From Burkholderia multivorans ATCC BAA-247 (GTDB lineage Bacteria > Pseudomonadota > Gammaproteobacteria > Burkholderiales > Burkholderiaceae): 64,000 nucleotides of DNA. The position numbers and the translations under genes are program-made. The notes below the pieces were generated by a model, which was not told where the DNA came from, did no database searches, and saw nothing but the letters and a program-made list of their open reading frames with translations. Positions within the stretch are counted from its first letter, which is position 1. The number at the start of each line of letters is the position of its first letter. Shown in pieces: positions 51,145 to 55,143 of the stretch. The stretch covers positions 3,224,001 through 3,288,000 of the forward strand of contig NZ_CP009832.1 in assembly GCF_000959525.1 (NCBI RefSeq). The letters are read 5' to 3'.

Positions 51145-51302
51145 TCGGCGGGTGGCGTTGGGGGAAACGGCGGACCGGCGGATCAGGGTGCGCGGTGCGA
51201 TAGGCGGTGCCGTGCGTGCGATGCCGGCGGTCGTGCGCAATGGCGGACTTCCAGGGCGGCTGTGGCCCGACTGGCGCGGGTTTTAGCGGTTTTCGCGCGT
51301 GC

Positions 51303-54250
51303 GCTCACCGTTGAAATGCACAGCGTTTCGACTGGCGTGGCGCGCGGGATATTCACATCCCGGCTGTCCCGCCACGTCACGCCGGCATTCGCACTCACCG
51401 TTCGGTTGCACAGCGTTTCGACCGGTTTTTTCGTCCGCGCGCGGTGAGGCTCACCGTTCGAATGCACAGGGTTTCGAGTCGTCGGTGGAGGCATATATCC
51501 ACATCGCGATCGCTCGATTCGAGTGGATGCGTCCGATGCTCACCGTTCGGATTCACAGACATTCGAGTGAGTTGACGCGCAGGATGTCCACATCCCGTTT
51601 GCGTCGTGAAGCGATCGGCAAACGCGCCTGCGATTGGCTGCTGCGTGTTGCGGCGGGCCTGGCAGCGGCGTCTTGCCGGGGCCGCCGACGGCGCTCACCG
51701 TTGAAATACACAGTACGGCGAGTGGTTTGGTCGGCCGGATATCCACATCGGTCGTTTCGGCGCGAATGCCACCGTCCGTTCGGGTGTGGACAACCGGCAC
51801 ACCCAAGGACTCGAATCACTGTGCATTTCGACGGTGAGCGTCGCGGTCGGCGCGCGGGCTATATGCCGGCCGTTACGCTTGTTCAGTGCTTGAAGCGACT
51901 GCGCGCCGGAACGTCGTCAGCCCCGCAGAGTCCGCCGCATCGTTCATGTCGCTGACCGATATTGCACGCGGGCGTCGGAGTGTACGCGATAGAACGACGA
52001 CGTGGGCGACTAATGGAACTGGATCGAAAGGACTGACCGCGCGAACACCGATTCATTCGAGTTACGCCGCGGCAATGCGTATCCCGGGCTGGCCCGCGGA
52101 ACGTCGGCGCGTCCGCGATCGCGGCGACCGCATTCGGTCGGAATCGCTCGACGGCGCGCGCTGGCGACCCGCGACGAACGATCGCGATATTGAACGCATC
52201 GCACCGTGGGAAAAGGCTTTGCGAGCGATTGGCGGCCGGTGCTCACCATTGAAATGCACAGGGATTCGAGTCGCTTCGCAGTCGACATATCCACATCGGA
52301 TGCCTCCTGTCGGCCGGTTTGCCGCTCGCACTCACCTCTGACATTCACAGCGATCTGAGTCGCTTTACGGCGGACATGTCCACATCGCGGATCGCGCCTT
52401 GATAGCTCGCGATTCACCGTAGCGCGTGTTACCTCGCGACGGAAATCGCCGTATCGAAAGCCGCGCGGCGGTGGGGCGTTTCCTCCCCTCACCGTAAAGA
52501 TTCACAGCGATGCGAGTCGCTTCGCTGCCGACATATCCACATCGCGGATCGCGCCTCGATGGATTGCGCGCCGGCGCTCACCGTTCGGATCCACAGCGGC
52601 TCGATTCTAGTCGCGACCTGGCATCGCCACATCAAAATCGGTGCCGCGATCGCACGGTCGCCGACACTCACCGTTGAAACGCACAGGGATTCGAGTCGCC
52701 TCGTTGCCCAGCTGTCCACACTGATCAGCAGCGTGGCGATGATTATTCACCGACGCTCGCCGTGCTGGCTCACGGCGAATCGGTCGTCCACACGCCGCGC
52801 ATTTTCGCGGCAAGCTCATGCTTCGGCGGATGGGTCGCCTCACACTCACCATCGAAATTCACAGTGATTGGAGTCGCTCCGAGGCTCACCTATCCACATG
52901 GATAGACGGCACTTCGATGATGAGTCGGAGACACTCACCGCTCTGGCTCCCGGTGATTGAATCGTCCACGCGATGCCCATCTCCACAACGAAATCTGCGC
53001 CTCGGCGAATCGGCTTTGTGGCGCTCACCATCGAAATTCACAGCGGTCCGAGTCGCTCCGAGGCCGACCTATCCACATGGATAGAGGGTGCTTCGATGAT
53101 GACTCGCCGACACTCACCGTTCAGGCTCACGGCGATTCAACGGTCCACACGACGCGTATCTCAGCAACAAAATCCGCGCCTCGGCAGATCGACCGCCTTG
53201 CGCTCACCATCAAAATTCACAGCGATTCGAGTCGCTCCGGGACACATCTATCCACATGGATAAACGGCAGTTCAACGATGACTCGCCGGCACTCAGCGCT
53301 CGGGCTTCCTGCGATTCGATCGACCACGCGCTGCCCATCTACACAACAAAAACCGCGCCTCGGTGAATCGCTTTGTGGCGCTCACCATCGAAATTCACAG
53401 CAATTGGAGTCGCTCCCGTGCTCACCTATCCACATGAATAAACGGCAGTTCGATGATGACTCGCGGGCACTCAGCGCTCCGGTTCCTTGCGGTTCGATCG
53501 TCCACGCGATGCCCGTCTCCACAACAAAAATCCGCGCTTCGGCGAATCGGCCGTCTCACCCTCACCATCGAAATTCACAGCGATTCGAGTCTCTTCGCTG
53601 TCGACATATCCACATCGCTGAGCCCATATGGACGGATTCGCTCGTCCGCACTCGCTATTCAGGTTCGCAACGCCTCGAGCCTTTCCGTAACGGACGTCTC
53701 CACAACCGAAAACCCTGCTTCGCCGGGTCAACCGCCTCGCACTCACCGTCGAAATTCGCAGCGATCCGAGTGCCTGTGCCGCCGACCTATCCACATCCCG
53801 AACCGCGCTTCGATGGATCGTTAGCCGACGGCCGCCGATCAGCTTCGCAACAAAGTCGAGCCTTTTCGCAGCCGACATCTGCGCACCGTAAACCGTGCCT
53901 CGCGATGCGGTTGCTCTCGCTCACCGTCGCAACGCACAGCGATCCGAGTGTCCGTACAGCCGACATATCCACGTCGGACGCACCGTAACCGAGAACCGAC
54001 CTTTTGGCGCTCACCGGTCGAACGCACAGCAAGCCGACTCTCCTCGCGGCAGCCATGCCGACGTCAAAGCCGTACACAAGCGGAAGGCCTCGTGCTCGCA
54101 ATCGCGCGAAAAATCCGCGCCGCCCGCCAGTGTGCCCAAAGGCCCCCAATCTCCCGCGCGCCCGCGTCCCGCTTCGCTTCGACGCCGCCGCTCACCGACA
54201 AAAAGCACAGCGCTTCGAGTCCCTTCAACGCCGACCTATCCACACACGCC
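51303..54250 (+). repeat. Tandem array of ~26 diverged ~89.5 bp units with DnaA-box-like cores
   Basis: Unit starts (the CTCACC element) read by eye: 51303, 51393, 51449, 51539, 51693, 52242, 52331, 52488, 52577, 52667, 52755, 52845, 52933, 53023, 53112, 53202, 53291, 53380, 53470, 53560, 53650, 53741, 53829, 53919, 54009, 54191; one inverted unit spans 51783-51840. Most steps are 88-91 bp. Block 1 is CTCACCRTYGAAATTCACAG followed by YGATTCGAGTCGCT; block 2 is GACMTATCCACATSG, about 24 bp later. TATCCACA occurs eleven times, always on +. From 52.5 to 53.8 kb, strong and weak units alternate (~179 bp). The frame shifts because steps are 88-91 bp, so it is not protein-coding. Around 51.9-52.2 kb the array is eroded. 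Confidence 0.85.
51783..51840 (-). repeat. Inverted unit of the array
   Basis: Read on the minus strand, this stretch gives CTCACCGTCGAAATGCACAG, then TGATTCGAGTC and TTGTCCACA, i.e. one complete unit in reverse orientation. It is the only clearly inverted copy found and sits next to the array's largest gap. Confidence 0.75.
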
Positions 54251-54528: not shown

Positions 54529-55143
54529 ATGAAGCTCTACTACTGGCCGAAAACCCGGGCGTTCCGGGCGTTGTGGATGCTGGAGGAAATCGGCGCCGTC
54601 TACGAGCTGGTGCCGATCGACCTGCGCTCGCACGAACAGGGCAGCGACGCGTTCGTGCAGGTGAATCCGATGGCGAAACTGCCCGCGCTCGACGACGGCA
54701 GCGCGCCGTTCGCCGAATCGGGCGCGGTGCTGCTCTATCTTGCCGATCGCTGCCCGGGCGCGGGCCTCGGCATCGCGCCGGACGACCCGGAGCGCGGCCG
54801 CTTCCTGCAGTGGATGTTCTTCACGCCCACCTGTCTCGAGCCGGCCATGGCGGAAAAATTCACCGGCGCGTCGGGCAACCCGGTCGCGTTCGGCTGGGGC
54901 AACATCACGCGCGTGCAGCGCGCGCTCGCGCAGACGCTCGCGCATAGCCGATGGCTCGTCGGCGACCGCTTCACCGCCGCCGATCTGCTGCTCGCGAGCA
55001 CGCTGAAGATCGCCTTCGACGCGCATCTGCTGCCGCACGAAGGTGTGCTCGGCGACTACGTCGCGCGCGCCGAGGACCGCGACGGATACCGTCGCGCGGT
55101 CGCGGTCGAGCAGCGCGAAGCGGCGCGGCTGCTGCACGCGTAA
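54529..55143 (+). CDS. Glutathione S-transferase family protein
   Basis: This 204-residue protein has a thioredoxin-like N-terminal domain (MKLYYWPKTRAFRALWMLEE, VNPMAKLPALDDG, FAESGAVLLYLAD) and a helical C-terminal domain with FTAADLLLASTLKIA. It is probably a cytosolic GST. A GGAGGCG ribosome-binding sequence precedes the ATG. It is the first gene to the right of the repeat array and is convergent with the sulfate-binding protein gene. Confidence 0.9.
   Translation: MKLYYWPKTRAFRALWMLEEIGAVYELVPIDLRSHEQGSDAFVQVNPMAKLPALDDGSAPFAESGAVLLYLADRCPGAGLGIAPDDPERGRFLQWMFFTPTCLEPAMAEKFTGASGNPVAFGWGNITRVQRALAQTLAHSRWLVGDRFTAADLLLASTLKIAFDAHLLPHEGVLGDYVARAEDRDGYRRAVAVEQREAARLLHA

Follow-up and report, generated by a model that had tools for sequence, protein, structure and literature searches.

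How the two or three chromosomes of Burkholderia are kept in step is a question on which a locus carried by most of the Burkholderia species examined may bear: a non-coding array of 89-base units, 1–3 kb long, whose position on the main chromosome is fixed. What such an array might do was examined in a window, by which we mean the whole stretch of 64,000 nucleotides of Burkholderia multivorans ATCC BAA-247 that was analysed, and in related genomes.

Extent of the array and anatomy of its unit

The array occupies 51302..54250 of the window (plus strand) and lies between two genes transcribed away from it, on the left a gene with PF01558 and PF20169 (47386..50997, minus strand), which we take to be iorA, and on the right a GST-family gene (54529..55143, plus strand). 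Our unit model, R1, gave 21 matches in 51302–54245, comprising 17 strong ones, three half-units (51392, 52575 and 54008) and a marginal one. A 20-base block with up to six substitutions detected 20 units on the plus strand and a single inverted unit (start 51838, minus strand), and a 32-base block with up to three mismatches occurred seven times against 0.00 expected. The array as an observation was therefore confirmed, although the count of about 26 units given in the original prediction was too high, about 21 being recognisable unless more degenerate ones are counted.

By model R1, the array begins with plus-strand units at 51302, 51392, 51449 and 51538 (51302..51596), followed by a plus-strand unit bearing TATCCACA at 51740 (51692..51751; also seen in the word count), the inverted unit (51780..51840, minus strand; also found by the 20-base block) and about 400 bases free of units (51841..52240). 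Then come five plus-strand units (52241, 52329, 52486, 52575 and 52665; 52241..52722), a part built of 178–180-base double units (52843..53618, plus strand), in which degenerate units, that at 53111 being the marginal one (E 0.09), lie between strong ones at 52843, 53022, 53201, 53379 and 53559, and the last plus-strand units at 53740, 53918, 54008 and 54189 (53740..54245). One unit is thus inverted and a stretch is unit-free; the step of 88–91 bp, first described as holding over most of the array, holds in parts and fails in the right half, where steps are mostly 178–181 with a degenerate unit in between. Tandem Repeats Finder called only 52845–53591, with a period of 179 and 4.2 copies. The eleven plus-strand copies of TATCCACA, said to be far above chance, proved to be so: all 11 in the window are on the plus strand within the array, 0.19 were expected, and none of 100 shuffles reached 11. 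Because spacings of 87–90 bases are mixed, a reading frame would not be kept from unit to unit, and we read the array as non-coding, in line with the original prediction; a decayed coding repeat was rejected for want of a frame-preserving period. The unit-free stretch at 51841–52240 adjoins the inverted unit, at a place where several relatives carry an inverted block, and is possibly a decayed or deleted block.

The array was laid out in 35 of the 51 array-positive genomes, giving 462 units, all between iorA and the GST gene, and none in 296,901 flanking bases; in two of these genomes (G031 and G022) a GST match was not found and units were counted within 6 kb of iorA. Units point from iorA to GST throughout, apart from inverted middle blocks of 3–9 units in nine of the 34 other genomes and the single inverted unit of the window. 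The commonest spacing is 89 bases (91 cases), followed by 90 (60), 88 (49) and 87 (29), and information within the unit peaks at CTCACC (positions 1–6), CACAG (16–20), CGAGT (26–30) and a DnaA-like box (about 46–54). Since the units of the 462- and 201-unit sets and of the conservation set were found by block 1, figures for block 1 are inflated, and the word test was therefore repeated from block 2, which removes this bias. Among 331 occurrences of T[AG]TCCACA in the iorA–GST gaps of the 35 genomes, CTCACC stood at the unit offset in 314, CACAG in 321 and CGAGT in 214, while at a control offset 7 bases away CTCACC was met once and CACAG never. TCCACA itself is invariant in alignment A1 and model R1 by construction, because the 125 of 201 units on which both were built were selected for holding it.

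The last three units were compared in the 26 genomes, representing 26 species, that share one last-unit pattern. Here CTCACC and CACAG had an identity of 1.00 in every unit compared, and CGAGT one of 0.71–0.96, against 0.38–0.47 ungapped at positions 60–75. Identity was 0.845 over block 1 and 0.924 over block 2, with gap fractions of 0 and 0.001, while the spacers, when aligned, reached 0.65 with 10.7% gaps. Judged from these alignments, the words of the unit are under selection while the spacers diverge.

Distribution and chromosomal place

The original prediction had proposed a search of Burkholderia genomes with a profile of the unit for a conserved locus, and such a locus was found, at the same place between iorA and GST. 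Out of 63 Burkholderia genomes, 47 have multi-unit arrays, four have BLAST matches only (G003, G010, G012 and G029) and 12 have none. BLAST with 801 bases of the array matched 42 of 61 genomes of the genus, and model R1, run on a family draw of 299 genomes, gave nine units or more in 36 of the 41 genomes of the genus that were listed; its unit counts stop near 18 and are lower bounds, and weak matches are lost to its filters. Further arrays came to light in G023, G049, G050 and G053 when the iorA locus was read directly, and seven further loci hold multi-unit arrays (G019, G032, G036, G038, G047, G058 and G059). In the same draw, 258 genomes of other genera, among which all 235 without an R1 match were placed, had no array, eight of them giving one or two hits at E 0.001–0.01. 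All 12 array-less genomes were read at the iorA locus (G045 in a contig part only), and for five the search covered the whole genome as well.

The order iorA–array–GST is common to the array-bearing genomes. In three array-less Burkholderia (G055, G048 and G014) and in one genome of another genus (G069), iorA and GST lie roughly 220–320 bp apart, and in eight of the other array-less Burkholderia no GST match adjoins iorA. The iorA–GST gap of the array-less G043 contains an unrelated insert of 2.3 kb (L130:5306–7658). The iorA gene is 94–96% identical to that of the window in ten array-bearing genomes and 83–92% identical in the 12 array-less Burkholderia. A scan of named genomes returned 25 stretches with titles that were all from Burkholderia, the named species among them being, as we take it, mostly of the cepacia complex; judged from these species names, the array belongs to a single clade of the genus, the B. 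cepacia complex. In the six array-bearing genomes searched, all matches at E≤0.05 were on chromosome 1. Weak R1 hits at C3:1,106,530, C3:967,856 and C2:2,075,432 of the genome of the window were dropped; the first recurs in relatives and was judged to be coding.

To place the array relative to the origin of chromosome 1, ori1 was taken as near mnmG, on the basis of a passage of PMC4948915 and of DnaA boxes, its exact position being approximate. Array and mnmG share a contig in 22 near-complete genomes, and in 20 of these the array lies 324–409 kb left of mnmG (7.4–11.0% of the chromosome), the exceptions being G001 and G008, where it lies 456 and 813 kb away on the other side. This constant distance may merely be inherited gene order. 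A strict timing of the crtS kind was rejected, as in six genomes the distance of the array (376, 348, 380, 397, 456 and 339 kb) does not track half the size difference between chromosomes 1 and 2 (542, 455, 185, 167, 230 and 541 kb, respectively).

A sister cluster of 2–5 units, some degenerate, lies 75–90 kb left of mnmG in six of six genomes (G000, G001, G011, G025, G031 and G037), in the genome of the window (G000) at C3:147,089–147,381 (L060:16090–16382). In all six it lies downstream of two genes, the first for an ECF sigma factor and the second presumed to encode an anti-sigma factor, a label given to a gene without a Pfam match. The dnaA gene is about 12 kb from the cluster in G000 and 18 kb in G011, and no dnaA was found in the 20–40 kb read around it in G001, G025, G031 and G037. 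In G000 the cluster lies between convergent ORFs and is thus not a promoter region.

Words shared with the replication origins

A passage of PMC7364216 describes CACAG as the target of the Burkholderia adenine methyltransferase BCAL3494 and as enriched at origins, and passages of PMC4948915 and PMC7364216 describe clusters of the 7-mer CTGTGCA at the origins of c1, c2 and c3. The opposite strand of this 7-mer, TGCACAG, is the form that block 1 takes most often (141 of 462 units), and CACAG lies within block 1 of 418 of the 462, both counts coming from units found by block 1. The density of CACAG is 6.8/kb in the array versus 0.74/kb elsewhere in the window, and 10.6/kb at ori2 of the same genome. 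At ori2 it is 10.0–14.1/kb in six array-bearing genomes versus 1.4–5.6/kb in five array-less ones (four Burkholderia and one of another genus), and among the 30 5-mers obtained by permuting its letters, CACAG is the most frequent there in all six of the former and none of the latter. In G000, single kilobases with 5–6 CACAG occur in the sister cluster, in the ori1 region at 197–199 kb and, ahead of dnaA, at 133 kb; five in one kilobase are also found at C3 230 kb and C2 231 kb, places without a known replication role, so that the counts near ori1 are weak evidence. Type III modification and restriction genes lie side by side at G000:C3:158.7–164.0 kb (L191:2726–7989), and this pair is possibly the CACAG enzyme. 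From its size and place, we infer that the methyltransferase of about 745 aa encoded beside the type III res subunit (L191:5752–7989) corresponds to BCAL3494. A like-sized candidate was present in seven of seven Burkholderia and none of three other genera tested.

The word CTCACC (GGTGAG on the other strand) makes up one half of CCCGAAAANNCTCACCT, the iteron of chromosome 2. This iteron is dense on C2 at 236.9–238.2 kb beside a Rep_3 gene and recurs in exact copies in each of the nine other Burkholderia tested, among them array-less ones. Rep_3 iterons contain TGAG half-sites. The other half of the iteron, CCCGAAAA, is absent from the units of the array, and the base after CTCACC is T in most iterons versus G or A in most units. 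At ori2, pairs of the form CTCACC-N6..16-CACAG number 5, 3, 2, 3, 4 and 4 in six array-bearing genomes versus 0 in each of the five array-less ones, a comparison among related genomes with shared ancestry and with a spacing range picked after seeing the ori2 data; the background of G000 holds one such pair in 212,723 bases. Randomisation within ori2 gave p values of 0.0005 (G000), 0.048 (G011), 0.35 (G001), 0.14 (G025), 0.02 (G037) and 0.008 (G031), so that random placing of CACAG within ori2 explains the pairs in two of the six genomes (p 0.35 and 0.14), 0.048 being borderline. A second iteron cluster, without enrichment of CACAG, lies at G000:C2:76.9–80.4 kb (L168), some 160 kb away from ori2; a passage of PMC4948915 likewise mentions that c2 has a second iteron cluster, at 140 kb from its origin.

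Block 2 has the form [AT]T[AG]TCCACA and avoids CACAG. Among its 371 matches, 23 are exactly TTATCCACA, 257 deviate from it at one base (185 of these being ATATCCACA), 86 at two and five at three; hence 280 of the 462 units have a box within one base of TTATCCACA, and the 91 further matches deviate at two or three. The base after block 2 is G in 10 of the 371, or in three of the 331 T[AG]TCCACA, versus 31% G in the spacers, while at C3 190–250 kb of G000 four of five TTATCCACA have G next. The form TTATCCACAG occurs five times in this genome versus four for the reversed control, all five being at C3 133–244 kb.

The original prediction suggested that the array could be a DnaA-titrating, replication-controlling or nucleoid-organising locus. 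Its link to replication is backed by the origin-enriched CACAG, the iteron word CTCACC and the near-constant place about 10% of the chromosome from mnmG, but plain titration of DnaA remains a conjecture; the box is systematically off its usual form. A hint that another factor may bind gained ground: in 26 genomes the last three units never vary in CTCACC or CACAG, words that a DnaA box does not explain, so that another initiator or factor is probably involved.

Possible functions and known systems

The reading that we favour, tentatively and with the case for it slightly the lighter, is that the array is a locus on chromosome 1 for replication control, to which DnaA, the Rep_3 initiator of chromosome 2 or both would bind under methylation of CACAG, in the manner of datA or crtS. 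It builds on the observed anatomy of the unit, the selection on its words, the fixed locus and clade, the occurrence of CTCACC and CACAG at ori2 as well, and the small sister cluster between the array and mnmG. Each 89-base unit offers CTCACC, a CACAG methyltransferase site, the CGAGT word and a DnaA-like box, on which initiators might assemble, DnaA at the box and the Rep_3 protein at CTCACC. On passing about 10% of the way round, the chromosome-1 fork would double the array and leave the CACAG adenines unmethylated on one sister, and this change in methylation could alter the binding or titration of initiator and so limit re-initiation or time chromosome 2; the array would then combine datA and crtS in its mode of working. 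Against this stand a box that is mostly ATATCCACA, the absence of CCCGAAAA from the units, and the fact that array-less Burkholderia also have these iterons and a candidate methyltransferase of like size. Passages of PMC4948915, in which c2 foci sometimes double before c1, and of PMC6090056, in which crtS activity is independent of the methylation state, also count against this reading.

The replication-control reading has two main forms. In the datA-like one, which we regard as doubtful, the array would titrate or inactivate DnaA alone through many weak sites about 10% of the chromosome from ori1, with CTCACC serving a helper protein. The box present in 371 of 462 units (280 within one base of TTATCCACA) and its region being the best conserved block between species argue for this form, as does the constant relative distance of E. 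coli datA from oriC described in a passage of PMC4585315; yet the box of most units is off consensus, CTCACC and CACAG, which are no part of a DnaA box, never vary in the compared units, CTCACC belongs also to the chromosome-2 iteron, and dnaA is near the sister cluster in only two of six genomes. In the crtS-like form, Rep_3 would bind together with DnaA. Its boldest version, in our view likewise doubtful, makes the array an independently evolved second coordination element, tagged by methylation, that would tie chromosome-2 initiation to passage of the chromosome-1 fork. An organising or segregation site, like a centromere or a macrodomain element and bound by a clade-specific nucleoid protein, is unlikely: it would suit a large and a small locus on one arm, left of mnmG, and the spacing classes of 155–157, 165–169, 175–182 and 189–191, about 11 bases apart (of which few are independent, so that helical phasing is only suggestive), but it leaves CACAG, CTCACC and a DnaA-like box shared with the origins unexplained, and according to a passage of PMC4948915 these chromosomes have known parS systems that are distinct from it.

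The position between two divergent genes would suit control of their transcription, but that the array regulates iorA and the GST gene in this way is very unlikely, given that G055, G048, G014 and G069 keep the gene pair with a gap of roughly 220–320 bp and no array, that the G000 sister cluster lies between convergent ORFs, and that some 20 sites across 3 kb would be extreme. Least likely of all, and highly improbable, is a neutral satellite or the relic of a mobile element. Absence from part of the genus and regular runs of 87–90 bases, which suggest recent tandem expansion (e.g. in G053 and G025), speak for it, whereas the invariance of words amid diverging spacers and the single locus throughout do not; a mobile origin was rejected, as none of 72,556 plasmid and 50,697 phage records matched the 801-base piece. 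A structured RNA repeat was also discarded (RNAalifold found 0 pairs on 125 units, and there was no Rfam match at the gathering score), as was a CRISPR array (repeats diverged, spacers 65% identical between species, no cas gene among nine neighbours scanned).

If replication control is the true reading, the CACAG methyltransferase would gain a place in the cell cycle. A passage of PMC4948915 sees no obvious shared regulation of the c1 and c2 origins besides 7-mers of speculative role and calls a crtS-like link in Burkholderia worth exploring. By uniting the 7-mer core, half of a c2 iteron and a DnaA-like box on chromosome 1, the array makes the coordination question testable, as a candidate site for controlling or coordinating the replication of several chromosomes. 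No published report of it was found in a literature search with subscription journals mostly outside its scope, and the passages of PMC4948915 and PMC7364216 on the 7-mers and CACAG do not mention it; its parts are of known kinds, and the composite was not met in the literature searched.

The E. coli datA locus is about 1 kb long, with few boxes and an IHF site. The array resembles it, and DARS1/2, as a non-coding chromosomal locus with DnaA-type boxes and a conserved relative distance from the origin (in a passage of PMC4585315), but has about 20 composite units, two further conserved words, one of them a methylation site, and off-consensus boxes. The 7-mers CTGTGCA and CACAG sites of the B. 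cenocepacia origin regions recur in it, TGCACAG being the commonest form of block 1, although in the array this word forms part of an 89-base unit and is far removed from the origins. It is tandem like the iteron arrays of Rep_3 replicons, with CTCACC as half of the iteron of chromosome 2, whose ori2-adjacent gene encodes a Rep_3 initiator; unlike them it has 89-base units, no CCCGAAAA and a place on chromosome 1, and no rep gene is among nine neighbours scanned. Passages of PMC6090056, PMC11711613 and PMC5991422 describe the Vibrio crtS as a family-conserved site on chromosome 1 with several adenine-methylation sites and a putative DnaA box, tied to the chromosome-2 initiator. Whereas crtS is a single sequence of 62 bp (70 bp in another passage), the array extends over 1–3 kb and shares one half-iteron word with ori2, its binding of an initiator is putative, and in six genomes its distance from ori1 is not set by the difference in chromosome size. 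Like crtS, which with the RctB 29/39-mers of Vibrio cholerae is among the closest known systems, it lies on the primary chromosome, is conserved within a clade and joins methylation sites to a DnaA-like box.
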